A stretch of 36,018 bases of DNA from an uncultured Nitrosomonadales bacterium. Lineage in GTDB: Bacteria; Pseudomonadota; Gammaproteobacteria; Burkholderiales; Gallionellaceae. Positions 2,473 through 35,657 of the stretch are shown here, piece after piece. Where the stretch lies: NCBI GenBank assembly GCA_903861075.1, contig CAIOSY010000095.1, positions 1 to 36,018 on the forward strand. Reading direction: 5' to 3'. The notes beneath the pieces are model-generated. The model had not been told where the DNA came from, did not search any database, and saw nothing but the letters and a program-made list of their open reading frames with translations. A program made the translations under genes and the position numbers. The first letter of the stretch is position 1. The number at the start of each line of letters is the position of its first letter.

Positions 2473-2994
2473 TTATTTCTGTGCGCTAATGGCGGTTAAT
2501 ATGCCTTGCATAATCGCGGTAGGGGTGGGCGGGCAACCGCTCACCACCACATCCACAGGAATGACATTAGCCACACTCCCGCAACAGGCATAATTATCCG
2601 CCTCCAGGGATGAAAAAATCCCGCCGCCACCACAATCCCCGATGACCACGACCAGCTTGGGTTCTGGCGTTGCGTCATAAGTACGCTTGAGCGCGACTGC
2701 CATGTGATGCGACACGGGTCCCGTGACCAGCAACATATCAGCATGGCGCGGACTCGCGACAAACTTGATCCCCAATCCTTCCAGATTGTAATAAGCGTTA
2801 TTGACGGCGTGAATTTCCAATTCGCAACCATTACAGGATCCGGCATCCACAAAACGAATAGCCAACGCACCACCGAACACATCAAGTATCTCTTGCTGCA
2901 GACGCTGATGATGCACGCGCAGCGACGCCACAGGCTCAGGGGGCGCCTCGGTTTTAATCCCCGTTTTAATAATCTGCCTGATAATTTGAAACAT
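2473..2994 (-). CDS. Ehr complex small subunit (HyfI/HycG/NuoB-like)
   Basis: The 173-residue protein belongs to the NuoB/[NiFe]-hydrogenase small-subunit family and would sit in the cytoplasmic arm of a membrane complex, carrying the proximal [4Fe-4S] cluster next to the large subunit. The four likely ligands are all present: Cys54 and Cys57 in SCNGCE, Cys121 in GDC and Cys154 in GCPP. It is much shorter than HycG/HyfI of formate hydrogenlyase (about 250 residues) because the C-terminal extension is missing. It is the last gene of the six-gene operon, 48 bases after the large-subunit gene, with an AGAGG Shine-Dalgarno-like stretch ahead of the ATG. Retention of this cluster shows that the complex still moves electrons although the NiFe site is gone. 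Confidence 0.88.
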   Translation of the reverse strand: MFQIIRQIIKTGIKTEAPPEPVASLRVHHQRLQQEILDVFGGALAIRFVDAGSCNGCELEIHAVNNAYYNLEGLGIKFVASPRHADMLLVTGPVSHHMAVALKRTYDATPEPKLVVVIGDCGGGGIFSSLEADNYACCGSVANVIPVDVVVSGCPPTPTAIMQGILTAISAQK

Positions 2995-3042
2995 TTGCGT
3001 ATCAGCCTCTATGACTCATTACTCATAAGCGAGCAACGTTAT

Positions 3043-4680
3043 TTACAAATCACAACCTGAATAGCTCAGGTTGAAAGATTTATTGATCAACGGAAAGTCG
3101 GGAACGATATTACCCATAATGGCGTGCTCCAGCGCCGGCCAGTTCTGCCAGGAAGGATCATGGGGATGAACCCGCGTCAAATTACCTTTTTCATCCGTAT
3201 GAATCGCCACCATCACCTCACCGCGCCAGCCTTCTAACATACCGGCACCAAAACGATGCGGCGGCAGACTCGTCACCGGATATGCCAAATCTTCACCGCC
3301 GATCAAGTTGATTAAAATATCGCGTTGCAAACGCAAGGACTCGAACAACTCATCAAAACGGACGATGACGCGAGCGGCGACATCACCGTGATGATGCGTC
3401 GCAATTTTCACATCCAGTTTATCGTAAGGTGCGCAAGGAAACTGCACACGACTATCCCAGGTTTGGGAACTGGCGCGCCCGGCCAATCCGCACAAACCGA
3501 GTGCCGCAGCCAATTTGGGCTCTACGCGCCCCGTGCCCATATACCTATCCTGCACACCCGCATGCTCATCAAAGATACTACGCAGCGTGTGTATTTCTTG
3601 TTCCAGCATGACACTTTCATCACGCAAGGTTTTTTTGCCTGACTCATCAATACCCGTCGTCACACCACCCGGAATGATCTTATCCATCAAATAACGATGA
3701 CCAAACAGCGTGGCATTGTTGCGCAGTACCTGCTCTTTCAAGATCCAGAACTGCGCATAAGCGAATGATAGCGCGACATCATTTCCCAGATAACCTAAAT
3801 CGCCCAGATGATTGGCAATACGTTCACGTTCCAAAAACAAGGCGCGCAACCACAGCGCCCGATCCGGCGGCGTAATATCAGCCACCCCTTCCACTGCCAT
3901 CGCATACGCCCACGCATACGCCACCGTACTGTCACCGCTGACACGCCCCACCAACTTCGCAGCAGCACATAACGCCTTGTTCTCTAATAATTTTTCTATT
4001 CCCTTATGGGTATAGCCCAGACGCGCTTCCAAACGCAGCACTTTTTCGCCGACGACAGAGAAACGAAAATGTCCCGGCTCTATAATGCCTGCATGAACCG
4101 GTCCCACCGGAATCTCATGCACCCCCTGCCCTTCAACCTGTACAAAAGGATAATCATCCTGAATTTGCGTTGCATCCTGCACAATTGCGCTTGCCTCCTC
4201 GCCCGCAGGCGCGCCGGAATCATGCTGACAGACTGCGACAAAATCTTTACGCAAAGGAAAGCTACCCTCGCGCCACGCCGCATGGCGCAGCCAGGCGCGC
4301 TGATCCTTAGCATCAATCGCCTTAATCCCCAACAGATCATACGCTGCGCGCTGCATACGATTTGCCGCTGGAAAAATCAAACTAAGATCAGGATAAACAG
4401 GCTGTTGAGCCGATAACGGCAGACTCAGCGCAACCAGACCCGTTTCATTGACTAAAACCACATGTAAAGCAAAGCCATTCAAAGAAGGCGCAGAAACCAA
4501 CGCAGTCTTCGCCTCTTCCGGACTGAGCGCGCGTTCATCACTCCCCCACAATGCAAGCAAACGCCCGCCCCCTTCACGAACAGCGGCACAAACCGGCAGA
4601 AGATCGGCTTCGGCAATTTTTCCGTGCCAGGCAGGAATTGCCCCCTTAATACGCTGAAGATTTAACTTTTTGACGGGCAT
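3043..4680 (-). CDS. Ehr complex large subunit (HyfG/HycE-like, NiFe ligands lost)
   Basis: The 545-residue protein has an N-terminal NuoC/30-kDa-like part (roughly 1-170) and a NuoD/hydrogenase large-subunit part (roughly 185-545), as in HycE/HyfG. Family landmarks are visible: VGPVHAGIIEPGHFRF, RLGYTHKGIEKL and the ERERIANHLGDLG helix. The two motifs that bind Ni-Fe in hydrogenases are altered. The first, normally RxCGxC, reads RVSGDS at 246-251. The second, normally DPCxxC, reads FNLSYSGC at the C-terminus. All four metal ligands are therefore missing, as in energy-converting-hydrogenase-related (Ehr) complexes, and the electron donor and acceptor are unknown. The ATG at 4680 is fixed by an in-frame stop four codons upstream. 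An AAGGAGG lies about 35 bases ahead of it, too far to be its own ribosome site. Confidence 0.9.
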   Translation of the reverse strand: MPVKKLNLQRIKGAIPAWHGKIAEADLLPVCAAVREGGGRLLALWGSDERALSPEEAKTALVSAPSLNGFALHVVLVNETGLVALSLPLSAQQPVYPDLSLIFPAANRMQRAAYDLLGIKAIDAKDQRAWLRHAAWREGSFPLRKDFVAVCQHDSGAPAGEEASAIVQDATQIQDDYPFVQVEGQGVHEIPVGPVHAGIIEPGHFRFSVVGEKVLRLEARLGYTHKGIEKLLENKALCAAAKLVGRVSGDSTVAYAWAYAMAVEGVADITPPDRALWLRALFLERERIANHLGDLGYLGNDVALSFAYAQFWILKEQVLRNNATLFGHRYLMDKIIPGGVTTGIDESGKKTLRDESVMLEQEIHTLRSIFDEHAGVQDRYMGTGRVEPKLAAALGLCGLAGRASSQTWDSRVQFPCAPYDKLDVKIATHHHGDVAARVIVRFDELFESLRLQRDILINLIGGEDLAYPVTSLPPHRFGAGMLEGWRGEVMVAIHTDEKGNLTRVHPHDPSWQNWPALEHAIMGNIVPDFPLINKSFNLSYSGCDL

Positions 4681-4748
4681 ATCAACTTTCTATCCTTGAG
4701 CACAGGACAACAACCTCCTTGATAAAAGCCGGGAATTACCGAGCGAAT

Positions 4749-6206
4749 TCATGAAAAAAGTGCCGCCGCCTGACGATACCAATTAGCCAAATAAGGCGGC
4801 ATATAAAGCCCCAGCAGTAACACTAAAAACAGATGCAAAAAGACCGGCAGCAGCGCAGGCGGATGCGGCAATGGTTTAGCTGTGGTTGCGCCGAATACCA
4901 TAGGTTGAATTTTGCCAAATATTGAAGCAAAGGCTATCCCCAGCGCCAGCAGCAAAATCGGCGTCGTCCACGGATAGTCATGCATCGCAGTGGTAATAAT
5001 CAAGAATTCACTGGCAAATACACCAAAAGGCGGCATCCCCAAAATAGCAAAGGTCCCCAATAGCAAGCCCCAGCCTACCGTGGGACTGACATGCAGCAAA
5101 CCGCGTATATGTTCCATTTGCTGCGTACCGACTTTTTGTACCGCGTGCCCCACGGCAAAGAAAATAGCCGATTTTGTTAAAGAATGCATCGTCATATGCA
5201 GCATAGCCGCAAAGTTCGCTACGGCACCGCCCATGCCAAAGGAAAAAGTAATCAAGCCCATGTGTTCAATCGAAGAATAGGCGAACATACGTTTGACATC
5301 CTTTTGCCTAGACAAAAACAGGGCGCCAACCAGTACCGACAACAAACCAAAGCCCATCATCAAATTCCCTGCAAAGTGTGTGCCCAGCGACCCGTCCACC
5401 AGCACTTTACTTCGCATCACCGCACACAGTGCCACATTCAGCAACAGTCCGGACAACACCGCAGAAACGGGTGTCGGCCCCTCGGCATGCGCATCAGGCA
5501 GCCAACTATGCAATGGAACCAAACCAATTTTTGTGCCGTAACCTACCAGCAAAAATACAAAAGCCAGTTTCAATACAGTGGGTTCGAGTTCCCCCTTAAC
5601 CTGATTCAAATGCGTCCAAAGTAGCGCCGTCCCCCCTTCACCCAAAACGCGCTCTGCAGCAAAATACAGCAATATCGTGCCGAACAAGGCCAACGCAATA
5701 CCCACGCCGCACAGAATAAAATATTTCCACGCAGCTTCCAGACTCGCCGGTGTGCGATACAAGGACACAAGCAGTACCGTACTCAACGTCGCCGCTTCCA
5801 TCGCCACCCAGATAATTCCCATATTATTCGTGGTCAGCGCCACCAGCATCGTAAAAGTAAACAATTGATACATACTGTAATACAGATGCAGCATAGGCGT
5901 ATTGAGCTTGCCGTGATGCTGCTCGATACGCATATAAGGACGTGAAAACAACGAAGTAGTAAACGCCACAAAAGCGGTCAAGGTAACCAGAAACACATTA
6001 AAGGGATCGATAAAAAACTGCTCGCCGAACGCGACTTGCGGGCCCGAATCGATCACCCTCAAGGTCAAAACAATCGCGGCAAGCAAGGTCGCGCCACTCA
6101 TCAGCGAATTGAGTTCTGCCGCCCAGGTACGCGAACCAAACAAGGCTAAAAACACCCCGCCCAATAACGGCGTCGCCAGCAGCGCGAGCAGTTGAAAATC
6201 AATCAT
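4749..6206 (-). CDS. Ehr complex membrane subunit (HyfF, NuoM/N-like antiporter type)
   Basis: The 485-residue polytopic protein (about 14 predicted membrane segments) belongs to the proton-conducting subunit family shared by complex I (NuoL/M/N), Mrp antiporters and hydrogenase-4. Visible landmarks are a glutamate in the WVAMEAATLSTVLLV helix, the TKIGLVPLHSWLPDAHAEGPTPVSA loop with its helix-7 lysine, and a second lysine in HSLTKSAIFFAVGHAVQK. These charged residues form the proton path in the family. The start overlaps the end of the HyfE-like gene by 8 bases, which suggests translational coupling. It is the second antiporter-like subunit of the complex, which would allow more than one ion-translocating channel. 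Whether H+ or Na+ is moved cannot be read from the sequence. Confidence 0.9.
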   Translation of the reverse strand: MIDFQLLALLATPLLGGVFLALFGSRTWAAELNSLMSGATLLAAIVLTLRVIDSGPQVAFGEQFFIDPFNVFLVTLTAFVAFTTSLFSRPYMRIEQHHGKLNTPMLHLYYSMYQLFTFTMLVALTTNNMGIIWVAMEAATLSTVLLVSLYRTPASLEAAWKYFILCGVGIALALFGTILLYFAAERVLGEGGTALLWTHLNQVKGELEPTVLKLAFVFLLVGYGTKIGLVPLHSWLPDAHAEGPTPVSAVLSGLLLNVALCAVMRSKVLVDGSLGTHFAGNLMMGFGLLSVLVGALFLSRQKDVKRMFAYSSIEHMGLITFSFGMGGAVANFAAMLHMTMHSLTKSAIFFAVGHAVQKVGTQQMEHIRGLLHVSPTVGWGLLLGTFAILGMPPFGVFASEFLIITTAMHDYPWTTPILLLALGIAFASIFGKIQPMVFGATTAKPLPHPPALLPVFLHLFLVLLLGLYMPPYLANWYRQAAALFS

Positions 6207-6873
6207 CTTTTAACTTTTCCATATGGGTAATATCCAGACTGTCAAAGGTCTCGCGTATCTGAAAAAAGAAAATCCCGAAAATAAAGGTTGCCACTAGCAC
6301 GTCCAGCGCAATACCCAACTCGACCACCAAGGGCATCCCCTGAGTGGCACTGGTCGCCGCAAAAAACAAGCTGTTCTCCAGCGACAAAAATGCAACAACC
6401 TGCGATACCGCCTTGCGCCGTGTGAGCATCATTAACAACGATAACAAAACACTCGCCAGCGCAATACCAATCAGGCCGCGCGTAATCCCTTCCGACAATT
6501 GTGAAATGGGTGCAGCCAAATTGAAGGCAAAAATGACCAGCGCAATACCAACCAGCATGGTAGTGGGAATATTGATCAGCCTTTCTACATCCCAGCGTAT
6601 ATTTAATTTTCTAATTAGCCGGTACAGCAGCCAGGGCAATATCAATACTTTCAACAACACCGTCAGTGCAGCGGAATAATACAAATGTTGCTGTGCCGTG
6701 GAGTAAGCAACGACGACCGTACTGATACTCAACACCAAGCCCTGCCAGGCAAACAAATTAATCAGGGAAAAAATACGGCGTTGCCCCAGCATGGCAAATA
6801 CGATCAATAACAGCATCGCCGCCAGCAAATTGATAAACTGCAAGGTGAGTGAAATTTGCACTAGCGCCCCCAC
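6199..6873 (-). CDS. Ehr complex membrane subunit (HyfE-like)
   Basis: The 224-residue hydrophobic protein has about seven membrane segments and resembles hydrogenase-4 component E, whose C-terminal half is NuoK-like (here SLENSLFFAATSATQGMPLV, with a glutamate inside a membrane helix). In the complex it would lie between the quinone-side subunit and the antiporter subunits. The start is a GTG at 6873 with GAGGAAGGG just upstream; a second GTG four codons later is also possible. It follows the HyfC-like gene by 69 bases, a T-rich stretch on the coding strand, and overlaps the next gene by 8 bases. Confidence 0.85.
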   Translation of the reverse strand: MGALVQISLTLQFINLLAAMLLLIVFAMLGQRRIFSLINLFAWQGLVLSISTVVVAYSTAQQHLYYSAALTVLLKVLILPWLLYRLIRKLNIRWDVERLINIPTTMLVGIALVIFAFNLAAPISQLSEGITRGLIGIALASVLLSLLMMLTRRKAVSQVVAFLSLENSLFFAATSATQGMPLVVELGIALDVLVATFIFGIFFFQIRETFDSLDITHMEKLKDD

Positions 6874-6942
6874 CCTGCCCTTCCTCTATACCCGCAAACA
6901 GGAAAAAAGGGAAAAATGAAAAAAATCCCGGAAAAGCGCATC

Positions 6943-7905
6943 TTACGCCCCCAGTAAAAAATGTATAAGCAATCCCAAAACGGCCAGTAAAAAGGCCGTA
7001 CCCAGAAATTCCGGCGCACGAAAAATGCGCATTTTTGCCGTCACAATTTCCAGCAGCGACAAGGCGGCACCGGCGAGCAACATTTTCACCACCAGAAAAC
7101 CAACCGCCTGCGGCAAGCCTGCCCAATTGCCCATTTCCGCAATACCGTGCGGAATAAACAAAGCAATGCCAATCGAAATATAAGCGAATAATTTCAGACT
7201 GCTCCCCCACTCGATTAGCGCCAGATGACGTGCCGAATATTCCAGTATCATCGCCTCGTGTATCATAGTCAGCTCCAGATGAGTACCGGGATTATCGACA
7301 GGAATACGCGCATTTTCTGCCAGCAAAACGATACCGAAGGCCAACGCCGCAAAACCCATGCTGGGATACAACACGAACTGATGGTGCGCCAACGCATCGA
7401 CAATGCCCGGCAATTGGGTAGAGTGACTAATCATTGACGCCGTAAACAACACCATCAACAAAGCCGGCTCAGCCAGAAACGACACCAGCATTTCCCGCCG
7501 CGCGCCCATAGATCCGAAGGCTGTACCGACATCCATTGCGGCCAGCGAAATAAACATACGCGCCAAGGCAAACACACCGACCAGCGCAATGACATCCGCC
7601 GCACCTGAAAAGGGCAAGTCAACGGCAATGATGGGGATAATCGCCGCCGCCAGCCACATACAAGCAAATACCACATAAGGGGTGAGACGAAACAACCAGG
7701 AAGCGTTATGCGCCAGCACCATATCCTTATGAAAAAGCTTGTGCAATACACGGTAGGGCTGTAACACACCCGCACCGGATCGATTCTGCAACCAGGCCTG
7801 ACACTGGTTCACCCACCCTGTCAATAAGGGCGCGGCCAGCACAACCAGCAGCAACTGCGTCAACTGGAAAAGAATCGCTAATATAAAATGGGGATTATTG
7901 ATCAT
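6943..7905 (-). CDS. Ehr complex membrane subunit (HyfC/HycD, NuoH-like)
   Basis: The 320-residue protein with about eight membrane segments belongs to the NuoH/HycD/HyfC family, which anchors the peripheral arm to the membrane. The conserved loop is clear: ENARIPVDNPGTHLELTMIHEAM, rich in glutamates, with the preceding SMGARREML segment typical of the family. In complex I this subunit borders the quinone cavity; in formate hydrogenlyase it couples the hydrogenase arm to the membrane without quinone. Its ATG overlaps the stop of the HyfB-like gene by four bases, so it is probably translationally coupled to it. Length is normal for the family. Confidence 0.92.
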   Translation of the reverse strand: MINNPHFILAILFQLTQLLLVVLAAPLLTGWVNQCQAWLQNRSGAGVLQPYRVLHKLFHKDMVLAHNASWLFRLTPYVVFACMWLAAAIIPIIAVDLPFSGAADVIALVGVFALARMFISLAAMDVGTAFGSMGARREMLVSFLAEPALLMVLFTASMISHSTQLPGIVDALAHHQFVLYPSMGFAALAFGIVLLAENARIPVDNPGTHLELTMIHEAMILEYSARHLALIEWGSSLKLFAYISIGIALFIPHGIAEMGNWAGLPQAVGFLVVKMLLAGAALSLLEIVTAKMRIFRAPEFLGTAFLLAVLGLLIHFLLGA

Positions 7906-9911
7906 ACGAATATCAACAAGACAATTAACGTCACAAAGGTATAAGTCAAATACAAATGAATACGCCCCTGCTGGAGCAAGGATACGCAGGCCGAGAGTCT
8001 TTCCGTTAATTGCTTAAGAGGCAGATACAGCAAATACCATAGCCGGTCTTCGCTACGTCCGTGGTATTTCGGATGCGCATCAAACGGGCCGGGTAACTCG
8101 CTTTCAATCTTGAAGAAAGGCTCGAAAATGCGACGTATCGGCTGACCAAATCCTTCAGCCGTATCCTGCATGCGTGCGGTCTGCGCAGGAAATCCACAAT
8201 CCCAGGGACTGCTGCGCCTTAATCTGCCGTGATACAGACGCCGCACCAACAAGATCGTGAGCAACATCACGCCCGCCACTGCCAGAAAAAAATAGACCGG
8301 ACTATAGCTGGCGCGTTCTGTATCAACAGGAGCAAGAAACATCCAATCGGCGGCAGCATTCCCTAATCCGGCTCCTAACAGCGACAACGACACCTGATCC
8401 AGAAATCGCACCACGACCACCGGTATCAAGCCTAACACCACACACAGCAATGCCAACCATGCCATTCCCGCACGCTCCCAGTAATCGGCATCCTGCGCCT
8501 GCTCCAGGATTTTCTCGCGCGGCTGTCCTAAAAAAATCACACCATAAAACTTTACCATGACATACGCTGCCAGCGCCGCCGATAAGGCAATCACTGCGGC
8601 CGCGACCGGCACCAGCATATTAATATAACTATTTGGCAACCCGGGTGAAAGCAAAAACGCCTGCAATAACAGCCATTCGGATACAAAACCGTTGAGCGGC
8701 GGCAAACCGGAAATCGCCAGCACACCGACCAGCATTAAGGCGGCCACCCAAGGCATACGATGAATCAATCCGCCCATACGTCCCATATTGCGCGCACCCG
8801 TGGCATGCAATATTGAACCTGTACCGACAAACAACAAACTCTTAAAACAAGCATGATTGAGGCTGTGGTACAAGGTAGCCGTCAAAGACAAGGCGGCTAA
8901 GGCATCCTTGCCATAAAAGTGAAAAATCAGCGTCAAACCGATACCAACTAGCAACAAGCCTATGTTTTCAATCGAAGAGTAAGCCAGCAGTCGCTTCATA
9001 TCGCCCTGCACCGCAGCAAACATCACACCAAAAATAGCGGTAATTAAGCCTAGGGTCAGCGCTAACACCCCCCACCACCAAACTTGCGTATTCAGCAAAT
9101 CAAAGGACACTCGTAAAATGCCATAGATTGCCATTTTGAGCATCACACCACTCATCAGTGCAGACACGGGAGATGGCGCTGCAGGATGTGCTTCAGGCAA
9201 CCAGACATGCATAGGCAATACCCCCGCTTTGGCACCAAAACCGAACAAGGTCAGCAAAAATGTGGCTGAAGCCCAAAAAGACGACGGATGTGCGGCACGC
9301 ATCGCATCAAAGGTATAAGCACCTATACCCTGCCCCCCTTGCATCACACCAAAACCAAGCAAAATGGCAATGGCGCCGACGTGCGCAATCAGCAGATACA
9401 AATATCCTGCACGGCGTATCTCAGGAATAGCGTGATCCGTGGTGACCAGAAAATAGGAAGACAGCGCCATGGTTTCCCATGCCAGCATAAAGACATACGC
9501 ATCATCCGCCAGTAAAACCATCGCCATACTGGCCAGAAAAAGGTGATATTCCAAACACAACAAACCCAGAACGGATCCTGGCATCATTTTGAAATAACCG
9601 GCGCCGAAGAGTGAAACCCCAAACGATGCACAGCCCAGTAAAACCAAAAAGAAAGCCGACAGAGGATCAAGACGCAGGTGGATAGGCAGATCAGGCAAAC
9701 CCAACGGCAGCACGGCGATAGTGGGTGTTTCACCTAACGACCAAAGCCCGGTCAGCGCAAGTATGAGTGCAGAAAAAGCACCCAGCGGAAAAACAACACT
9801 GACAATAAACCGCGGGTTGCGCTGCAGCAGCAACCCGAGCAAGCCCAATCCTGCCAATACCGCGATCATCGCGCCCGCTACATCTATCGGTAAAACACTC
9901 GCTACATTCAT
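7902..9911 (-). CDS. Ehr complex membrane subunit (HyfB, NuoL/M-like antiporter type), first gene of operon
   Basis: The 669-residue polytopic protein resembles hydrogenase-4 component B. It has about 14 core helices with the membrane glutamate of LAWETMALSSYFLV, the AKAGVLPMHVWLPEAHPAAPSPVSA loop, and a lysine in HSLNHACFKSLLFVGTG. A C-terminal extension carries further helices and a soluble stretch (SSPWDCGFPAQTARMQDTAEGFGQP and following) that is usual in HyfB. It starts the operon; an inverted repeat and a possible promoter lie in the divergent gap to the spermidine-synthase-like gene. No ferredoxin-like gene (HyfA/HyfH type) accompanies the operon, so electrons probably enter through a soluble partner or another subunit encoded elsewhere. 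Confidence 0.92.
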   Translation of the reverse strand: MNVASVLPIDVAGAMIAVLAGLGLLGLLLQRNPRFIVSVVFPLGAFSALILALTGLWSLGETPTIAVLPLGLPDLPIHLRLDPLSAFFLVLLGCASFGVSLFGAGYFKMMPGSVLGLLCLEYHLFLASMAMVLLADDAYVFMLAWETMALSSYFLVTTDHAIPEIRRAGYLYLLIAHVGAIAILLGFGVMQGGQGIGAYTFDAMRAAHPSSFWASATFLLTLFGFGAKAGVLPMHVWLPEAHPAAPSPVSALMSGVMLKMAIYGILRVSFDLLNTQVWWWGVLALTLGLITAIFGVMFAAVQGDMKRLLAYSSIENIGLLLVGIGLTLIFHFYGKDALAALSLTATLYHSLNHACFKSLLFVGTGSILHATGARNMGRMGGLIHRMPWVAALMLVGVLAISGLPPLNGFVSEWLLLQAFLLSPGLPNSYINMLVPVAAAVIALSAALAAYVMVKFYGVIFLGQPREKILEQAQDADYWERAGMAWLALLCVVLGLIPVVVVRFLDQVSLSLLGAGLGNAAADWMFLAPVDTERASYSPVYFFLAVAGVMLLTILLVRRLYHGRLRRSSPWDCGFPAQTARMQDTAEGFGQPIRRIFEPFFKIESELPGPFDAHPKYHGRSEDRLWYLLYLPLKQLTERLSACVSLLQQGRIHLYLTYTFVTLIVLLIFV

Positions 9912-10035: not shown

Positions 10036-10106
10036 TTACATAACGTGATAACAATATGTTAATGTTTTAACCTGTCCTGCCTGGATAATTAAGGAGTATG
10101 GCGGCA

Positions 10107-10934
10107 ATGCACTCAACAGACCAACCCAGCAAACGCAACAAGGGACGATTTAAAAACACCGTCAAGGAAATTTTTTCCTGGTTTGAGGCGGCTGATGAAA
10201 ACCACTTGGACTCACATCCTTACATCAAAGAAAGCAAGGGTATTTTAGCGCTACACCTAGACAAAATGTCGGTGCAAAGCGAAATGAAACTGGATGCACC
10301 GGACGAACTGGTGCTGGGTTATACGCGCGCCATGATGTGCGCGCTGTTGTTACTCAACGAACCCAAGTCCATCGCCATGATAGGATTGGGCGGCGGATCA
10401 CTGGCAAAATACTGCTATCGCTATCTACCTTTAAGTAAAATTCTGGCTCTGGAAATCAATGCCGGCGTGATTGCACTGCGCAATGAGTTCGCCATTCCGC
10501 CAGATGATGCGCGCTTTCAAGTCAGATTGGCTGATGGCGCGGACTACGTGCGAGATAATTCAGAGACGGTTGACGTGCTGTTTGTTGACGGATTTGATGC
10601 CTCAGGACAAGTACCACAATTGGGAACGCCGGAATTTTATGATGATTGTTTCGCAAAACTCAACAACAACGGCGTGCTGGCCGTCAATCTGTGGTTCGGT
10701 TACCCCAACTACGATAAATATGTTGCGCGCATCAGCCGAAGTTTTGCCGGACAAATTGCCATCGTCGATGCCGACGGTGACAAGGCAAATAAAATCATCC
10801 TGGCGGTCAAGCAAGGAACTTTCCCGCCGTCTCATGCGACCTTACGACAACGCGCCGAGAGTCTGTGCAAAAACCACCCGATGAACTATCAGGCTAAAGC
10901 CGATAAAATCATAAAACACTTATCAAAAAATTAA
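10107..10934 (+). CDS. Spermidine-synthase-like (polyamine aminopropyltransferase fold) protein
   Basis: The 275-residue protein has a Rossmann methyltransferase-type core of the SpeE family. GLGGGS at residues 93-98 is the nucleotide-binding loop, an acidic residue ends the next strand (LALEINAGVI), and VDGFDA near 161-165 keeps both aspartates of the SpeE active-site strand. The canonical GGGDG reads GGGSL, so the loop aspartate is missing, and the N-terminal beta domain is reduced. True spermidine synthesis is therefore uncertain and another SAM-dependent role is possible. An AAGGAG at 10091-10096 leaves 10 bases to the ATG at 10107 but only one to the ATG at 10098, so the later start is chosen. 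A small gene follows after 13 bases. Confidence 0.75.
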   Translation: MHSTDQPSKRNKGRFKNTVKEIFSWFEAADENHLDSHPYIKESKGILALHLDKMSVQSEMKLDAPDELVLGYTRAMMCALLLLNEPKSIAMIGLGGGSLAKYCYRYLPLSKILALEINAGVIALRNEFAIPPDDARFQVRLADGADYVRDNSETVDVLFVDGFDASGQVPQLGTPEFYDDCFAKLNNNGVLAVNLWFGYPNYDKYVARISRSFAGQIAIVDADGDKANKIILAVKQGTFPPSHATLRQRAESLCKNHPMNYQAKADKIIKHLSKN

Positions 10935-15083: not shown

Positions 15084-15878
15084 TTAAACAGCGGAAAATA
15101 ACAGCTTGATACCGATTGCATAAAGAAACAAAGCGAAAACTTTTTTCAGTGTCGACACAGGCAAGGCATGAGCCGCCCTTACGCCATAAGGGGCAACCAG
15201 CATACTCGCCACCACCAATCCGGCCAAGGCGGGCAGATAAACAAAACCTAAACTCCCGCAGGGCAAATCCCGAACTGCAAGACCATTGAGCACATACCCC
15301 AGCGTACCGGCCAGTGCGAGGGGAAAACCGAGGGCGGCAGAAGTCCCAATCGCATCGTGCAGTTTGATATGACAGCGTGTCATAAAAGGCACGGATAACG
15401 TGCCGCCGCCTATGCCAACCAAGCTGGAAAAAGCACCAATGACGCCCCCTGCTGCGAACATACCCGCCCCTCCCGGTATTGAACGCGAAACTTTAGACTG
15501 AATATTGAATAACTGCCGGGTCGCGACATAAAAAATAAAAACAATAAAAAAATCGCGCAGCAAAACCGTGGACAGTTTTGCGGCTAAAAACGTAGCTGCG
15601 AAAGCACCCAGGAGTATGCCCGGCGTGATGCGTTTCACGATATCCCATTTGACCGCGCCACGATTATGATGGGTACGTAAACTCACAAGAGAAGTAAACA
15701 GTACGCTGGCAAGTGAGGTGCCGACTGCGATGTGCATCAGTTGATCTGCGGGAAAATGCTGCGCTGCGAAGACAAACAAAAGAATGGGCACAATCACAAT
15801 ACCACCGCCCACGCCCAGCAAGCCGGCTAAAAAGCCGGCGATACTCCCTGCTGCAAGATAAAATAGCGCGAAATCCAT
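15084..15878 (-). CDS. TauE/SafE-family membrane transporter (distal copy in cys operon)
   Basis: The 264-residue protein has about eight membrane helices and the two half-repeats of the TauE/SafE (DUF81) family, each opening with a glycine-rich motif: GFLAGLLGVGGGIVIVP near the start and GAFSSLVGIGGGTLSVP in the second half. Members export or import sulphite, sulphate, sulphonates or related anions. It lies 53 bases after cysN on the same strand and is probably the last gene of the sulphate assimilation operon, so a role in sulphate or sulphite movement is likely but direction and substrate are inferred. A second family member heads the operon. Confidence 0.85.
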   Translation of the reverse strand: MDFALFYLAAGSIAGFLAGLLGVGGGIVIVPILLFVFAAQHFPADQLMHIAVGTSLASVLFTSLVSLRTHHNRGAVKWDIVKRITPGILLGAFAATFLAAKLSTVLLRDFFIVFIFYVATRQLFNIQSKVSRSIPGGAGMFAAGGVIGAFSSLVGIGGGTLSVPFMTRCHIKLHDAIGTSAALGFPLALAGTLGYVLNGLAVRDLPCGSLGFVYLPALAGLVVASMLVAPYGVRAAHALPVSTLKKVFALFLYAIGIKLLFSAV

Positions 15879-15931
15879 AATTTCCCTTCTCAGATAGAAG
15901 TTGATAACCCGGCTACTTCATCTGGCATCCA

Positions 15932-17182
15932 CTAGGCTATCATGCCCGCTGCGACCGTGTTGTTAGTGGCTTCATCAATCACGATAAAGCTGCCGCTGGC
16001 ACGGTTACGCGTGTAGTGATCGGTCACTAAAGGCAACTGCACTTTAAGTCGGACATGAGCAATATCATTCATATTCACCGTTGGATTAGCGTGCTGCTCT
16101 AGCGTATTCACGTCAATACGATAATCAATACTGGTGAATAGACATTTGGCGGTTCGTGTGGTGTGCTTGACCAGATATTTGCGATTTTTATCCAGCGGCG
16201 CGTCCGACAACCAGCACAGCATCGCGTCAAATTCTTTCGTCACCGTAGGTAAATAATCCGCTTTGACGAACATATCACCACGTGAAATATCGATCTCATC
16301 GGTCAAGGTAATACAAATCGACTGTGGCGCACAGGCTGTTTCAAGATTGCCATCCAGTGTAACGATTTCTTTCACACGACTGGTGCGACCAGAGGGCAGC
16401 ACGGTAATTTCATCTCCTACAGTCACAGAACCCGCTTCAATACGTCCCATAAAGCCACGGAAATCATGATATTCGTCGGTCTGCGGACGACACACCCACT
16501 GCACCGGATATCTAAAATCCGTGGTGTTTACGTCATGATCAATCTCAACATTTTCCAGCACTTCCATCAAGGTTGGCCCCTGATACCAGTTCAGATTATC
16601 CCCGCGATCAACCAGCATATCGCCCACCAGGGCCGACAACGGCACACAAGTAACATTATGCAAACCCAGTTGTGCCGCAAAAGCCAAATACTCAGTGCAA
16701 ATTTCATCGAAACGCGCCTGTCCGTATTCGACCATATCCATCTTATTCACGGCCAGCACAATGTGCGGAATACCCACCAGACTGGCCAGATAAGTATGGC
16801 GACGCGTCTGCACCAGCACACCACGACGGGCATCAATCAGAATCACCACCAGATTCGCGGTGGAAGCCGCTGTCACCATATTCCGCGTGTACTGCTCATG
16901 CCCTGGCGTATCGCCGATGATGAATTTGCGCTTGGGTGTCGCGAAATAACGGTAGGCCACATCGATGGTGATACCCTGCTCGCGCTCCGCTTGCAAACCA
17001 TCGGTTAGCAAAGACAAATCCACGGCTGCCATACCGCGCTTCTCAGAAGTTCTCGAAATCGCAGAATATTGATCTTCAAAAATTGATTTAGAATCGTGCA
17101 GCAGGCGACCAATCAGCGTGCTCTTGCCGTCGTCCACACTGCCTGCAGTAATAAAACGTAATAATTGTGTCGTGTCAGTCAT
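15932..17182 (-). CDS. cysN: Sulphate adenylyltransferase subunit 1 (GTPase)
   Basis: The 416-residue EF-Tu-like GTPase drives ATP sulphurylase (sulphate + ATP to APS + PPi) together with CysD. The G motifs are clear: G1 GSVDDGKST near residue 15, G3 DTPGHEQ around 92 and G4 NKMD around 146, followed by beta-barrel domains. The length shows no fused APS kinase (CysC) domain, which fits a pathway in which APS itself is reduced by the neighbouring CysH. It follows cysD with a two-base gap and is part of the long minus-strand cys operon. Confidence 0.97.
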   Translation of the reverse strand: MTDTTQLLRFITAGSVDDGKSTLIGRLLHDSKSIFEDQYSAISRTSEKRGMAAVDLSLLTDGLQAEREQGITIDVAYRYFATPKRKFIIGDTPGHEQYTRNMVTAASTANLVVILIDARRGVLVQTRRHTYLASLVGIPHIVLAVNKMDMVEYGQARFDEICTEYLAFAAQLGLHNVTCVPLSALVGDMLVDRGDNLNWYQGPTLMEVLENVEIDHDVNTTDFRYPVQWVCRPQTDEYHDFRGFMGRIEAGSVTVGDEITVLPSGRTSRVKEIVTLDGNLETACAPQSICITLTDEIDISRGDMFVKADYLPTVTKEFDAMLCWLSDAPLDKNRKYLVKHTTRTAKCLFTSIDYRIDVNTLEQHANPTVNMNDIAHVRLKVQLPLVTDHYTRNRASGSFIVIDEATNNTVAAGMIA

Positions 17183-17184
17183 GA

Positions 17185-18090
17185 TTAAAAGTACCCTTCC
17201 TTCTTGCGCAATTCCATTGAGGCGTCTGATGTTTGATCATCCATGCGGGTAGCACCGCGTTCGGTGATACGTGTCGTTGCCGTTTCTGCAATGATTTCTT
17301 CGACATTGCTGGCAGTGGATTCCACCGGCGCCGTACAGGTCACGTCACCCACGGTACGAAAACGCACCGAGAGTACTTCGACTTTTTCACCCGCTTTCGG
17401 TTGCACCAAATCCGACACAGGAATGACTGAATTCCCACGGCGTATCACTTCGCGTTCGTGCGCGTAATAGATGCTGGGAATATGCAGTTTTTCACGGCCT
17501 ATGTATTGCCAGATATCCAGTTCCGTCCAGTTGGAAATCGGGAACACCCGGATATTTTCACCCTGGTGGACGCGCGTATTGTAAATATCCCACAGTTCGG
17601 GGCGCTGATTTTTAGGATCCCACTGACCGAATTCATCGCGGAACGAGAAGATACGTTCCTTGGCCCGCGCCTTTTCTTCATCGCGACGCGCCCCGCCCAT
17701 GCAGGCATCAAAGCCAAACTCAGCAATGGTTTCGAGCAAGGTCACCGATTGAAACGGATTGCGCGGTAAATCCGGATTTTTGATGACGATACTGCCGCGT
17801 TTGATGGAATCCTCCAAAGAACGCACAATCAAACGCTCACCCAGATCTGCGGCCAGTTTGTCACGCGTCGCAATGACTTCCGGAAAGTTATGCTCCGTGT
17901 CGATATGCACCAGCGGGAACGGAAATTTGGCCGGACGAAAGGCTTTTTCAGCCAGCCTTAACATCACAATGGAATCCTTACCGCCGGAAAACAACAGCGC
18001 AGGATTTTTGCACTCAGCCGCAACCTCGCGCATGATATGAATGGATTCACTTTCCAGTGCGTCCAGATGGGTGAAAATACGATTATTCAT
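17185..18090 (-). CDS. cysD: Sulphate adenylyltransferase subunit 2
   Basis: Catalytic subunit of ATP sulphurylase, 301 residues, PP-loop nucleotide alpha-hydrolase fold. The PP-loop is FSGGKDSIVML near residues 34-44. Also visible are the HIDTEHNFPE strand, GGARRDEEKARAKERIFSFR, and a C-terminal RKKEGYF tail typical of the family. It adenylates sulphate to APS in the cytoplasm using the GTPase CysN, encoded immediately downstream. It lies 15 bases after cysH. Confidence 0.97.
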   Translation of the reverse strand: MNNRIFTHLDALESESIHIMREVAAECKNPALLFSGGKDSIVMLRLAEKAFRPAKFPFPLVHIDTEHNFPEVIATRDKLAADLGERLIVRSLEDSIKRGSIVIKNPDLPRNPFQSVTLLETIAEFGFDACMGGARRDEEKARAKERIFSFRDEFGQWDPKNQRPELWDIYNTRVHQGENIRVFPISNWTELDIWQYIGREKLHIPSIYYAHEREVIRRGNSVIPVSDLVQPKAGEKVEVLSVRFRTVGDVTCTAPVESTASNVEEIIAETATTRITERGATRMDDQTSDASMELRKKEGYF

Positions 18091-18105
18091 GGTTTCTTTC
18101 TTTTT

Positions 18106-18822
18106 TTATCGGGCGGACCCAAACGATGATATTTGCGAAATCTTGCCTGCATGCAGACCGCATTCTTTCCCCTCCGCACTCTCCCACCACCATCTGCCGG
18201 AACGAATATCTTCGCCCGGCGTCACGCTACGGGTACAAGGGGCACAGCCTATACTGGGATAAAACCGGTCGTGAAGTTTATTGTAAGGCACATCGTGCTG
18301 TTTGATATATTCCCAGACGTGGGCATTCGTCCAGTCCAGCAACGGATTAAACTTTTGCAAGCCCTGATCTGCATCATAGGCGGAAACTTCCAGCTTGCCG
18401 CGCGTCACCGCCTGCTCACGGCGCATCCCGGTAATCCACGCTTTGTTACCTGACAGCGCCCGTTGCAAAGGCTCGACCTTGCGAACGTAACAACAGGCTT
18501 TACGATTTTCCATACTATCGTAAAATCCGTTCACCCCGATTTTCTCAAGCAGCGTTTCCACCGAGCTCGATTCAGGGAAATAAATAACCAGTGGTACGCT
18601 ATAACGTACGCGCACCGCCTGCATCAAATCATAAGTTTCTTGCGGCAAACGACCGGTATCCAAACTAAACATCGCAATTTCCGGTTGAAAATGAGCGATT
18701 AAATCCGTCAGAACCATGTCTTCAGCGCCTAAACTATTGGCAAATGTCACCGTGCCAAATTCGGCAACAGCCGATGCCAATACCGTTTTTACCTGTTCAA
18801 CTTTCTCCGCCAACTCGCTCAT
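18106..18822 (-). CDS. cysH: Assimilatory adenylyl-sulphate (APS) reductase
   Basis: The 238-residue PP-loop enzyme reduces activated sulphate to sulphite with thioredoxin or a similar thiol donor. The [4Fe-4S]-binding cysteine pairs are present: Cys110-Cys111 in the ACCYVRK stretch and Cys193/Cys196 in GCAPC. The catalytic cysteine is Cys221 in ECGLH. The cluster-binding pairs mark it as an APS reductase and not a PAPS reductase, in agreement with the absence of CysC. The ATG overlaps the stop of the DUF934 gene by four bases (ATGA), so translation is probably coupled. Confidence 0.94.
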   Translation of the reverse strand: MSELAEKVEQVKTVLASAVAEFGTVTFANSLGAEDMVLTDLIAHFQPEIAMFSLDTGRLPQETYDLMQAVRVRYSVPLVIYFPESSSVETLLEKIGVNGFYDSMENRKACCYVRKVEPLQRALSGNKAWITGMRREQAVTRGKLEVSAYDADQGLQKFNPLLDWTNAHVWEYIKQHDVPYNKLHDRFYPSIGCAPCTRSVTPGEDIRSGRWWWESAEGKECGLHAGKISQISSFGSAR

Positions 18823-19328
18823 AAAACACCCCGCTGTGCGCGACGAAACAAGGGTTGGGACTGATCACAGGATGCCTGATAACTTATTGAAAAATCATTC
18901 AGGCCTTTGAGCGCCGCTTGCATATCCTTGTCGCTACGCAGCGCAAAAGAATCAAATCCAACGCGTTGCATATAATACAACTGATCACGCAACACATCCC
19001 CGATGGCGCGCAACTCCCCGGTAAAACCAAGGCGTTCACGTAGCAAATAAGCGAGGCTATAACCGCGCCCGTCTGCGAATTTAGGAAAATCTACCGCAAT
19101 CACGGTGAATTTTTGAATATCTTCCTGCAAGTCTTCCGGCCTGTCATCACTTGCCAGCCAAACCCCCGTTTCAGCGCGTTGAACCAGCGTGTCGCGTTGC
19201 GCCTGCCAGACACGCATAGGCACGATAACGCGACCTTGTGCGACGAGCACATTCTCAGCGGCTTCTTCTGCATCCGGGCGCAGCACCGTCCATTCATCCG
19301 CGACGATCGCTTTATTTTTTATGATCAT
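18819..19328 (-). CDS. DUF934 protein linked to sulphite reduction
   Basis: The 169-residue soluble protein matches the DUF934 family, which is found almost always between cysI and cysH in beta- and gammaproteobacteria. Visible features are a central AVDFPKFADGRGYSLAYLLRER segment and the RVGFDSFALR stretch near the C-terminus. Its biochemical role is not established; an accessory or electron-transfer-related role for the CysI-type sulphite reductase is usually assumed from gene position. It starts 3 bases after cysI and overlaps cysH by four bases. Confidence 0.85.
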   Translation of the reverse strand: MIIKNKAIVADEWTVLRPDAEEAAENVLVAQGRVIVPMRVWQAQRDTLVQRAETGVWLASDDRPEDLQEDIQKFTVIAVDFPKFADGRGYSLAYLLRERLGFTGELRAIGDVLRDQLYYMQRVGFDSFALRSDKDMQAALKGLNDFSISYQASCDQSQPLFRRAQRGVL

Positions 19329-19331
19329 TTT

Positions 19332-21065
19332 CTAAAACCTCGGTGAATAGTAAGGCATATCATAAGGAACCCCGACTTTGAGCAACGCATAATCTGCACC
19401 CGCCAGTTCCTTGTCATTCTCAACCGGAGTCGCATAAACGTAAGTTTTAAACGGTTCAAAACCGATACGACGTACGGTATCGATGAAACGCTCGTCGTCA
19501 TATCTATGCTCGACATAAACCGTCAACAACCTGGCCAGCACTTCAGGAATTTGACCGAAACTGAACGAGCGGCCGATTACTTTACCGATTGAACTGTTAT
19601 TGCCCTGTGCCCCGCCAATGGAGACCTGATACCATTCCTCGCCATCCTTATCCACACCCAAAATACCAATATGACCAATATGATGGTGCGCACAGGCGTT
19701 AACACCTCCGGAAATATTCAGATCAATTTCGCCTATGTCGTGCAAAAAATCAATATCATCAAAACACTGTGCAATTGCCTTGGCCAGCGGAATTGAACGG
19801 GCATTTGCCAGCGTGCAGAAATCACCGCCAGGACAGCAAATAATATCTGTCAGCAGTCCAATGTTAGGCGTCGCCATACCGAGCTCTTGCGCTGAAAGCC
19901 AAAGGTCGAAAAGATCCGTTTGTTTAACGTCAGCCAGCACCAGATTCTGCATATGCGTTGCCCGCACCTCGCCAAAACTGAAACGATCCGCCAATTCCGC
20001 CGCCGCCTCCAACTGCGCCGTGGTCGCATCGCCTGGCGCAATGCCCGTCTGCTTTAAAGACAAGACGACAGCCGCATAACCTGGCATCTTGTGCGATTTA
20101 ACATTGCGCTGCAACCAGTTGGCAAAGGCTTTGTTATCACCTTGAAACACGTCCTCATCAGGCAAATCCTCGTAGGCCGGCGCGGTGAAACAGGCTGAAA
20201 CACGATTCAATTCTGCTTGTGTAATGGTGCAAGGCCCGCCACGCGTATGCAACCAATCGGCTTCCACCTGACGTTTAAATTCTTCTATTCCGAGTGCTTT
20301 AACCAGTATCTTGATGCGCGCTTTATACATATTGTCGCGCCTGCCGTATTGGTTATAGACACGAACGATAGACTCTACGTAAGTAATCACATCCTGCCAC
20401 GGCACAAAGGCACAAATTTCCGAGCCTATCACCGGTGTACGACCTAAACCGCCGCCGACCAGCACGCGAAAACCCACTTCGCCCTGGTCATTTTTAACCA
20501 CGGCTAGCCCGATGTCATGCACGGCAATAGCAGCTCTGTCATCTAGCGCGCCGGTGATGGAAAATTTAAACTTACGTGGCAAATAAGCGAATTCAGGATG
20601 AAACGTACTCCACTGACGCAAAATCTCGGCATAGGGACGCGGATCGACAATTTCGTCCCGCGCAACGCCGGCAAACTCATCACAAGTGATATTGCGTATG
20701 CAGTTTCCAGACGTCTGAATGGCGTGCATCTCTACACTGGCCAAATCCGCCAGAATATCCGGCGCATCGGGTAACTTTATCCAGTTGAACTGAATATTCT
20801 GACGCGTGGTGAAGTGTCCATAATCGCGGTCATATTTCTTCGCAATGTGGGCGAACATCCGTACTTGCGCGCTGGAAAGTAAACCGTAAGGCACAGCGAT
20901 ACGCAGCATATAAGCGTGTATTTGCATATACAGCCCGTTTTGCAGACGCAGAATACGAAATTCGTCTTCAGTCAGTTCGTCTGACAAACGTCGGCTCACC
21001 TGATCACGAAACTGAGCCACGCGCTCTGCAATCAGTTGATGATCGAATTGATCGTAACGATACAT
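19332..21065 (-). CDS. cysI: Sulphite reductase haemoprotein (CysI/NirA type), one cluster cysteine apparently missing
   Basis: The 577-residue protein is a two-repeat nitrite/sulphite reductase that would reduce sulphite to sulphide with a sirohaem-[4Fe-4S] centre. The ferredoxin-like repeats are visible, with FTTRQNIQFNWIKLPD and TSGNCIRNIT in the first half and RATHMQNLVLADV in the second. The first cluster pair is intact (Cys411 and Cys417 in CPGGDFC). The second should read C-x3-C but is SGGVNAC, with Gly454 (codon GGT at 19704-19706) in place of the first cysteine and only Cys458 left. No cysJ flavoprotein gene is nearby, so the electron donor is probably a ferredoxin or another protein. 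The gene follows the 77-residue small gene without a gap. Confidence 0.92.
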   Translation of the reverse strand: MYRYDQFDHQLIAERVAQFRDQVSRRLSDELTEDEFRILRLQNGLYMQIHAYMLRIAVPYGLLSSAQVRMFAHIAKKYDRDYGHFTTRQNIQFNWIKLPDAPDILADLASVEMHAIQTSGNCIRNITCDEFAGVARDEIVDPRPYAEILRQWSTFHPEFAYLPRKFKFSITGALDDRAAIAVHDIGLAVVKNDQGEVGFRVLVGGGLGRTPVIGSEICAFVPWQDVITYVESIVRVYNQYGRRDNMYKARIKILVKALGIEEFKRQVEADWLHTRGGPCTITQAELNRVSACFTAPAYEDLPDEDVFQGDNKAFANWLQRNVKSHKMPGYAAVVLSLKQTGIAPGDATTAQLEAAAELADRFSFGEVRATHMQNLVLADVKQTDLFDLWLSAQELGMATPNIGLLTDIICCPGGDFCTLANARSIPLAKAIAQCFDDIDFLHDIGEIDLNISGGVNACAHHHIGHIGILGVDKDGEEWYQVSIGGAQGNNSSIGKVIGRSFSFGQIPEVLARLLTVYVEHRYDDERFIDTVRRIGFEPFKTYVYATPVENDKELAGADYALLKVGVPYDMPYYSPRF

Positions 21066-21299
21066 TTAGATGTCCTCAGCCGGGTAAAATTTTGATACCG
21101 GCAGCAGCAAGGCGGCATCCAGGGGAAACTTCGCGCCAAACGCTAAAATCTGAGCGACATCCGAATCTTCATCGTGACGTAATGCCGCACCAATATACGC
21201 ATGCTCACCGGTTTGTCCGACCACGACCCCGACACGACCGCCACAGCCGTTAAACCAGCTCACCTGTTTGGGTTTATTCGCTTTATTTTCACTCATCAT
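21066..21299 (-). CDS. Unidentified 77-residue protein of the cys operon
   Basis: I do not recognise this family. The protein is soluble, with a basic N-terminus (MMSENKANKPKQ), a glycine-rich WFNGCGGRVGVVVG stretch, and a hydrophobic C-terminal half (LAFGAKFPLDAALLLPVSKFYP). It lies between the first tauE-like gene (7 bases upstream) and cysI (no gap), which makes cotranscription nearly certain and a link to sulphite reduction likely. AAGGA precedes two adjacent ATGs at 21299 and 21296; the second has slightly better spacing. Confidence 0.7.
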   Translation of the reverse strand: MMSENKANKPKQVSWFNGCGGRVGVVVGQTGEHAYIGAALRHDEDSDVAQILAFGAKFPLDAALLLPVSKFYPAEDI

Positions 21300-21305
21300 T
21301 TTTCC

Positions 21306-35636: not shown

Positions 35637-35657
35637 AGCATTCTCCAATTCCTGTGA

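Follow-up and report, generated by a model that had tools for sequence, protein, structure and literature searches.

The window analyzed here is the whole of contig C95 (36,018 bases), part of a 2.3-Mb genome of an uncultured Nitrosomonadales bacterium of the family Gallionellaceae, a relative of the iron-oxidizing Gallionella (177 contigs, 96.3% complete), and it carries an operon for an Ehr complex, a relative of the group 4 [NiFe] hydrogenases whose large subunit has lost the Ni/Fe-binding cysteines. The ehr genes are six open reading frames (ORFs) on the minus strand at positions 2473-9911 in the order B-C-E-F-G-I, and all six genes of the HyfB, C, E, F, G, and I types claimed in the original prediction were found there. 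Two of them encode antiporter-like membrane subunits. While EhrB (7902-9911, 669 residues) is of the HyfB type and scored 921 bits against the NCBIfam model for hydrogenase 4 subunit B (cutoff 667), EhrF (4749-6206, 485 residues) is of the HyfF type and scored 868 bits against that for subunit F (cutoff 543). Between them lie ehrC (6943-7905), for a HyfC/NuoH-type membrane subunit of 320 residues that matches Pfam NADHdh and falls below the cutoff of the NuoH models, and ehrE (6199-6873), for a HyfE-type membrane subunit of 224 residues that stays below the cutoff of the NCBIfam hydrogenase 4 membrane subunit (77 versus 136 bits). The large subunit EhrG (3043-4680, 545 residues) is of the NuoC+NuoD/HycE type without Ni/Fe ligands and reached 21.1 bits against Pfam NiFeSe_Hases (cutoff 25.8), with the NuoC/D models also below cutoff. 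The small subunit EhrI (2473-2994, 173 residues) is of the NuoB/HycG type, with 90 bits against Pfam Oxidored_q6 and the NuoB NCBIfam model below cutoff.

We call the window's kind of complex type 1. Its gene order recurs on one strand in 110/111 loci with all six subunits (106 distinct), and the position of ehrE is constant in 110 of these 111 complete operons. The operon had been described as complete and hydrogenase-4-like; the six genes are indeed a complete set for an Ehr of this type, but the wording is too strong when set against E. coli hyf, from which hyfA, hyfD, hyfH, and hyfJ are missing here. Long open frames hinted at EhrF-EhrG fusions; among the loci where both share a frame there are none, with stops between the two. 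At L134 (8691-10289, minus strand), an EhrG stands without the other five subunits adjoining, among unrelated neighbors, possibly through misassembly.

The former NiFe site of EhrG and its phylogenetic place

An alignment of EhrG with E. coli HycE (7z0s_E) places RVSGDS (residues 246-251; 3928-3945, minus strand) opposite RVCGIC and NLSYSG opposite DPCYSC, and the four ligand positions read Ser, Ser, Ser, and Gly. This bears out the claim that RxCGxC has become RVSGDS and DPCxxC has become NLSYSGC (residues 537-543; 3052-3072, minus strand), with all four Ni/Fe ligands gone. The Cys of the SGC lies one residue beyond the ligand position, at a place where relatives mostly carry Gln, His, Val, Ala, Pro, or Asn and a few carry Cys. 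EhrG thus has neither of the two motifs of a group 4a [NiFe] hydrogenase, and it displays the loss of Ni/Fe-binding cysteines that characterizes Ehr.

The type-1 large subunits were collected in a set of 154 rows, 144 of them distinct and 2 cut before the C-terminal motif. No ligand Cys is present in 131/144, a single one is present in 13/144, and two are present in 0/144. The motifs that replaced the ligands are themselves conserved: R246 and D250 occur in 144/144 and G249 in 141/144, N537, Y540, and D544 each occur in 142/144, and position 542 carries Gly 140 times and Ala twice (positions 539 and 542 are empty in two of the 144 rows). Neither H225 nor D301 varies (144/144). In the host's own family, 14/14 large subunits read GR[VI]SGD[ST]T and NLSYxGxDL. 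Across 29 sequences, conservation at residues 246 and 249-251 was 0.93-1.0 and at 12 of the 13 positions from 533 to 545 was 0.79-0.97, compared with a protein mean of 0.66; the lower values within the two segments are those of residues 247 (0.66), 248 (0.79), and 543 (0.45). Because ligand cysteines are lost throughout the type-1 set and the replacement motifs are conserved, the former active site of EhrG is, to judge from these sequences, rebuilt, and it reflects neither decay nor sequencing error, the latter having been named beforehand as a possible explanation. That the complex has remained a hydrogenase, with a metal site of an unusual kind, or is a pseudogene is scarcely credible: the overall fold is kept and one ligand Cys survives in the 13 sequences mentioned, but no sequence holds two, and the six intact genes recur in fixed order in many lineages with conserved sites throughout.

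The AlphaFold model of EhrG (pLDDT 82, with low confidence in segment 174-226) has as its best PDB fold HycE of formate hydrogenlyase (FHL; 7z0s_E, TM-score 0.80), and that of EhrC (pLDDT 84, with low confidence at residues 201-220) has HycD of the same complex (7z0s_D, TM-score 0.87). In a profile search with EhrG, HycE 7z0s_E likewise came first with 251 bits, followed by membrane-bound hydrogenase (MBH, 135), the best complex I chains (125), and the archaeal sulfane sulfur reductase MBS (88).

We placed EhrG in a tree of 71 large subunits by an IQ-TREE quick search with SH-aLRT support; published Ehr sequences were not among the rows. The window and 52 other type-1 Ehr form one clade (53 of the 71 rows, SH-aLRT 96), and two further NiFe-dead types together with an active-looking sequence, L065_act, join this clade at 99. 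E. coli HycE and HyfG and the active sequences of loci L032-L034 fall outside the 99-supported clade, although long branches and odd composition in the outgroup and active rows leave the deepest joins unsure. The large subunit therefore sits in a NiFe-dead clade and not in a catalytic hydrogenase clade, where a placement would have spoken against the prediction. The branching order inside the 99-supported clade is compatible with one loss of the NiFe site and with several. Of the other dead types, type 2 comprises L031 and L162-L165, and type 3 comprises L087_b and L090_b (L087 3-2996; L090 18560-20296); examples of their motifs are RVSGVGS with GLTIAGCDR and RVCGSR or RVCGNR with DLSYCGNDL. 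The active-looking sequence belongs to L065/L189 (G425:C93:89000-107800), where a group 4 hydrogenase operon and a dead type-1 Ehr operon are neighbors in head-to-tail orientation in the Betaproteobacterium NC_groundwater_730, a natural before-and-after pair.

Three features agree with the description of Ehr, namely the lost cysteines, Mrp/complex-I antiporter-like subunits (EhrB and EhrF), and a large subunit related to group 4 hydrogenases by profile, tree, and fold. The predicted identity is supported by the ligand loss across the type-1 set and by the placement in the dead clade, and the window's complex is almost certainly an Ehr complex. Apart from the operon, the host genome holds a [NiFe] large-subunit match at G000:C55:61348-62580 (plus strand; PF00374 up to 61.6 bits, in a 542-residue frame), through which the host may still make a true hydrogenase; the PF00374 search extended over 115 genomes and was kept out of the co-occurrence counts given below.

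Retained residues, the missing ferredoxin subunit, and the EhrC loop

As predicted, the small subunit keeps its four cluster cysteines. C54, C57, C121, and C154 of EhrI (2533-2835, minus strand), the [4Fe-4S] ligands, align with cysteines of HycG/HyfI, and all four are present in 134/134 distinct homologues. The membrane Lys and Glu residues of the antiporter-like subunits are likewise kept: E137, K161, K226, K305, and E400 of EhrF occur as a complete set in 135/135 distinct homologues, and E146, K228, K306, K357, and E412 of EhrB in 107/108.

The likeness to hydrogenase-4 fails at its ferredoxin-type subunits. The window's operon holds six genes only, and neither HyfA and HyfH, as in group 4a, nor NuoI and N-module subunits, as in complex I, are among them. 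A tblastn scan (E 1e-3) with HyfH, HycF, NuoI, HyfA, HycB, and the HyfH-like stretch of the active L065 operon as queries gave no match inside any of 111 complete type-1 operons. A ferredoxin-type match was found nearby in 5/5 type-2 loci (weak in L163) and in 2/2 type-3 loci, and the L065 active operon has a HyfH-like match with iron-sulfur motifs that seem somewhat eroded. The most parsimonious reading is that type-1 Ehr lost the two ends of the old electron path, the catalytic metal site and the HyfH-type ferredoxin subunit through which electrons enter, and kept one cluster and the pump. This pattern of loss and strict retention limits the mechanisms that come into question and can serve as a signature for tests.

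With both redox ends gone (the NiFe ligands and HyfH) and both antiporter-like subunits intact, the complex could also move ions without any redox step, as an antiporter or pump of the Mrp kind whose hydrogenase-like head is structural or a sensor. We regard this as improbable, however, as the four cluster cysteines are kept in every one of the 134 small subunits and the former active-site segments are well conserved, which a passive cap would not need.

A further feature lies in EhrC, where the loop DNPxTHLELTMIHEAMxLE (residues 204-222; 7240-7296, minus strand), with two conserved His, is 3 residues longer than the corresponding part of E. coli HycD, HyfC, and NuoH. We take this loop to sit in the NuoH region that faces the quinone chamber in complex I. 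H209, E211, H216, E217, and E222 occur together in 109/110 distinct homologues. The extra residues are present neither in the active HycD-type proteins of L032-L034 nor in Fpo-type proteins, and type 2 has them without both His. The HyfC of the NiFe-active relative in G425 carries an EhrC-type loop too, PVDNPDTHLELTMLHEGMLLEHS, which rules out the loop as a mark of NiFe loss; because this active relative has it, the loop marks a wider clade.

Distribution and genomic neighborhood

In the host's family, 76/150 genomes have a type-1 large subunit, whole or in part (hand tally, fragments included, such as one of 64 residues in G144); genus g9 of the family has Ehr in 0/19 genomes. A scan of genome contigs matched at least 584 stretches, of which 574 were confirmed. 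The best 80 of the 574 (L046-L125), which were found with type-1 queries and hence lean to type 1, include Gallionellaceae, Thiobacillus, Accumulibacter, Rhodoferax, Ramlibacter, Paraburkholderia, and Rhodanobacter, as well as metagenome-assembled genomes titled Granulicella and Leptospirillum; the locus set repeats some genomes, which is why distinct counts are given. Plasmid records gave 109 matches at E 1e-20 or better, with 57 from Rhizobium (31), Azospirillum (16), and Sinorhizobium (10) together; seven plasmid matches were fetched, and among the remaining records are Escherichia and Klebsiella, where the match could be true Hyf. Carriers of the operon include Rhizobium, Azospirillum, Cupriavidus, Paraburkholderia, Rhodanobacter, and Accumulibacter, and among them are the laboratory hosts Cupriavidus metallidurans CH34 and Azospirillum brasilense. 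A suggested tie to Fe(II) oxidizers does not hold, given this range and the tally of 76/150 genomes in the family. In database records, the complex is labeled hydrogenase-4, formate hydrogenlyase, or NADH-quinone oxidoreductase.

Co-occurrence was tallied by hand in a class sample of 276 genomes at least 90% complete, 36 of them with type-1 Ehr (E 1e-60), against three markers: nifH (over the cutoff), RuBisCO (PF00016, E 1e-30), and SoxB. nifH was present in 12/36 Ehr-positive versus 14/240 Ehr-negative genomes (odds ratio 8.1, Fisher p = 1.1e-5). Counted by family, 11 were shared between 27 Ehr-positive and 19 nifH-positive families (p = 1.8e-5, with 156 families assumed). The link appeared in RuBisCO-positive genomes (9/21 versus 7/121), was weak in RuBisCO-negative ones (3/15 versus 7/119, p = 0.08), and was also seen in the host's family (29/76 Ehr-positive versus 14/74 Ehr-negative genomes, p = 0.011). 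It is a correlation, and lifestyle may explain it.

No partner gene is fixed beside Ehr in the 140 loci examined; SulP, gamma-carbonic anhydrase, and RuBisCO neighbors recur in some lineages only. A SulP transporter lies in the flank of 15/140 loci (14 distinct genomes), in all but L048 on the same strand, upstream, and no more than ~2 kb from the first visible Ehr gene. In the host's family, a survey of 43 of the 76 Ehr-positive genomes found SulP adjoining Ehr in 5 (G007, G010, G030, G056, and G141; hand tally) and somewhere in the genome in 32; the host genome has no SulP at E 1e-30. A gamma-carbonic anhydrase, whose best PDB matches are Cam-type enzymes and CcmM, stands between SulP and ehrB in Thiobacillus L061 and betaproteobacterium L068 and elsewhere in the locus in L062 and L063. 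While L061 reads SulP, Cam-class gamma-carbonic anhydrase, Ehr, and then cbbOQSL with CbbR (form I RuBisCO), L063 reads SulP, Ehr, and then cbb genes with the gamma-carbonic anhydrase among them (form I RuBisCO). In Thiomonas L097, form II RuBisCO with cbbQO directly follows Ehr; in L133, RuBisCO lies ~6 kb off with further cbb genes and a beta-carbonic anhydrase beyond; and in Accumulibacter L077, DabA/DabB stand behind Ehr, the sole DabA match nearby among the 140 loci.

These neighbors raise the possibility of a part in inorganic-carbon uptake: the complex would assist, or would itself power, vectorial hydration of CO2 or the import of bicarbonate for the Calvin cycle, after the manner of the NDH-1MS and DAB complexes, which use other subunits. 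In its favor, carbon-fixation genes accompany the Acidithiobacillus caldus hyfBCEFG cluster, of which a second copy lies beside a beta-carbonic anhydrase, according to the passages available from PMC3826726. This role is nevertheless unlikely. RuBisCO does not co-occur with Ehr (21/36 positive versus 121/240 negative genomes, p = 0.47), 121/140 loci, with flanks of varying length, have no match to the SulP, gamma- or beta-carbonic anhydrase, RuBisCO, CbbQ/O/R, or Dab references, and no inorganic-carbon protein was named among the scanned ORFs of the window; moreover, DAB-type chemistry has no use for the strictly conserved cluster. SulP itself can be read in two ways. It stands behind three SoeABC-pattern genes in L179, L180, and L181 (in L180, where they were named, a molybdopterin enzyme, an iron-sulfur protein, and a DmsC/NrfD-type subunit of 997, 254, and 325 residues), a setting that fits sulfate as well as bicarbonate. 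Although the Thiobacillus and Thiomonas context looked strong, a strict link to CO2 fixation was rejected on the RuBisCO statistics and the ambiguity of SulP, and the role in carbon uptake is kept as a rival.

The SoeABC-pattern genes and SulP of the Gallionellaceae, which lie on the upstream side of Ehr in L179 and L180 and are turned toward it in L048, could instead point to a sulfur-compound oxidoreductase in which the dead site acts on sulfur species, as in archaeal MBS; MBS chains (6u8y) do match EhrG in sequence and EhrC in fold. We consider this quite unlikely, since SoxB and Ehr show no co-occurrence (15/36 versus 102/240, p = 1.0), which disposes of a link to sulfur oxidation through SoxB, most type-1 large subunits (131/144) have no ligand Cys, and HycE, MBH, and complex I all fit the EhrG profile better than MBS. 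Type-1 Ehr also differs in having no ferredoxin-type subunit, which we take MBS to possess.

In the window, a speE-like gene (10098-10934, plus strand; PRK04457 below cutoff) lies upstream of ehrB and divergent from it, with what we take from its sequence to be dnaE beyond; downstream, a gene converging on the operon is, again from its sequence, presumably metG. No formate dehydrogenase (FDH) and HycB-type linker are encoded alongside, as formate hydrogenlyase would have them. A formate-linked complex, either FHL or FDH-Ehr, has for it that the closest structure is FHL HycE, that FDH precedes hyf by a few genes in A. caldus (PMC3826726), and that fdh genes were read in A. thiooxidans clusters (PMC6002666), both as given in the accessible text. 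It is very unlikely for type-1 Ehr, in which the HycB/HyfA-type ferredoxin subunit that would take electrons from FDH is absent from the 111 operons and the H2 site is gone; among the flanking genes scanned with Pfam/NCBIfam, no FDH scored over the curated cutoffs (a minority of flanking genes was named).

Several loci bear other neighbors. The speE-like (PRK04457) gene is near Ehr in 11/120 loci of several lineages and orientations, in addition to the window, and on Variovorax plasmid L172, genes labeled 'fused MFS/spermidine synthase' flank Ehr on both sides. L177 (1615-8838, minus strand) has three SulP transporters with gamma-carbonic anhydrase among them just upstream of the Ehr operon. 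In L144 (173-6679, minus strand), SulP and TauE directly precede ehrF-ehrG with no ehrB, ehrC, or ehrE between, the rest of the operon lying out of view. A gene at L025 (10805-11545, minus strand), ~1.7 kb from the Ehr operon, is presumably for an RnfB-like ferredoxin, judging by its N-terminal sequence. Elsewhere in the window, positions 15084-22091 hold genes of assimilatory sulfate reduction type (a GTP-binding EFTU-type protein, two PAPS_reduct proteins, DUF934, and a nitrite/sulfite reductase) flanked by two TauE/SafE proteins, and positions 33264-35648 (minus strand) encode an MtrB/PioB-type outer-membrane porin (386 bits), which fits extracellular electron transfer.

A putative quinone-linked pump and its known relatives

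We tentatively favor, with slightly less than even confidence, a reading of type-1 Ehr as a quinone-linked redox pump for protons (or other ions) whose partner would dock directly on the small subunit. A diffusible one-electron carrier, for example ferredoxin or flavodoxin, would bind EhrI, the EhrI cluster would exchange electrons with a quinone bound at the junction of EhrG and EhrC, and charge movement would run through EhrF and EhrB. Docking on EhrI is proposed because the complex has one cluster, no ferredoxin subunit, no NiFe site, and intact NuoH-like and antiporter-like subunits. The coupling of a redox reaction to ion movement, which the prediction had expected, would be allowed by the conserved cluster and channel residues. 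In hosts living with oxygen, the complex might run uphill, with proton-motive force making low-potential electrons from quinol. This direction is possible but doubtful; hosts with ample quinol would be where it is plausible, and it would fit the nifH enrichment.

In the large subunit, H225 and D301 align with a His and an Asp of complex I chain 2fug_4, which we take to be H38 and D139, near the quinone. Several observations weigh against the proposed pump. The quinone Tyr of complex I, presumably Nqo4 Y87, aligns with Gly249 of EhrG, and the normal quinone head-group site is thus not kept. The pair H225/D301 is not specific to quinone enzymes, as membrane-bound hydrogenase 6cfw_L has an Asp at the second place, and no electron-carrier gene is fixed beside the operon. 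As for nifH, it is absent from 24/36 Ehr-positive genomes and from the host genome, and where both occur, it lies on another contig or at least 139 kb from Ehr. Within genera of the host's family (g1, p = 1.0; g2, p = 0.11), the host's own genus included, the association is not significant, and the nifH statistics are corrected for relatedness to family level only, with genome size and lifestyle uncontrolled.

Several known systems have features in common with the type-1 complex. It shares the B-C-E-F-G-I order of E. coli hyf and the folds of Hyf/Hyc (group 4a), FHL 7z0s (hydrogenase-3) being the best PDB match, but it differs in the missing four NiFe ligands and four hyf genes and in the longer EhrC loop. 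The L065/L189 hydrogenase has the 99-supported clade, the EhrC-type loop, and the tandem arrangement in common with type-1 Ehr, whereas it still has RICGVC and CYSC, along with a HyfH-like stretch. With the Q and P modules of complex I, Ehr shares subunits of NuoB, NuoCD, NuoH, and NuoL/M/N type and the His-Asp pair H225-D301; however, it has no N module and no NuoI, and the quinone Tyr is replaced by Gly. The DAB2 complex for vectorial CO2 hydration likewise has a complex-I-like proton-conducting membrane subunit, but the DabA that goes with its operon is missing from the ehr operon (PMC13144422, as far as its available text describes the complex).

Ehr complexes are reportedly the subject of a 2013 paper by Marreiros, known through citations. 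In the excerpts available, they appear in print as a group of unknown function (PMC6349859, PMC7304191, PMC10284858, PMC10432482, PMC4378227, PMC6728331) and are described from Sulfobacillus (six syntenic genes, PMC4378227), comammox Nitrospira (PMC10284858), Margulisbacteria (PMC6349859), where an FDH-Ehr was proposed, and the candidate phyla radiation (PMC7304191). Compared by description, these complexes and the window's share a group-4-like large subunit without NiFe motifs and are both akin to complex I and antiporter subunits. A ferredoxin subunit is absent from the window's type; for theirs, the excerpts are silent on this point. A six-gene group-4-like 'cluster III' of Acidithiobacillus, published in 2018 and annotated fdh-mhy, has the printed motifs SGD[TS][TS][AV][GA]Y and NLSYSGHDL, which differ by one residue (Cys for His) from SGDSTVAY and NLSYSGCDL of the window, a comparison made on this printed motif pair alone (PMC6002666). 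The present complex belongs to a kind already known, and its anatomy is now drawn more sharply. Among open-licence PMC papers, we found no description of the missing ferredoxin subunit or the nifH association, nor of the EhrC loop, for which no search by loop name was made, and nothing useful on rhizobial expression of the operon.

For the host's relatives, a Gallionellaceae hydrogenase survey names HoxFUHY, HyaAB, and HupUV; the string 'hyf' does not occur in it, and 'ehr' occurs twice, both times within the name Ehrenberg (PMC10734462). Genes GALL_all_03470-03520 of an acidophilic Sideroxydans were read as formate hydrogenlyase with group 4 subunits in the accessible part of PMC5178258; numbered in tens, the range would comprise six tags, and our family survey suggests that they may encode the type-1 complex. 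A. caldus hyfBCEFG was likewise read, in the passages available, as an H2-evolving hydrogenase (PMC3826726). If the Sideroxydans and A. caldus clusters are type-1 Ehr, as we infer, the H2 metabolism predicted from them would be wrong (PMC5178258, PMC3826726).

A more specific form of the proposal is rather unlikely. In it, type-1 Ehr would be a distinct branch of the complex I/hydrogenase family that has no ferredoxin subunit and retains one cluster and the entire pump, and proton-motive force would drive a direct exchange of electrons between quinol and a diffusible low-potential carrier. If true, aerobic and microaerobic bacteria would obtain from it the reductant for N2 fixation and for other reactions at low potential, and the task that falls to Rnf and Fix elsewhere would be solved here independently and by simpler means. 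Ehr complexes are widespread, and carriers such as C. metallidurans CH34 and A. brasilense open the question of their substrate to genetics.

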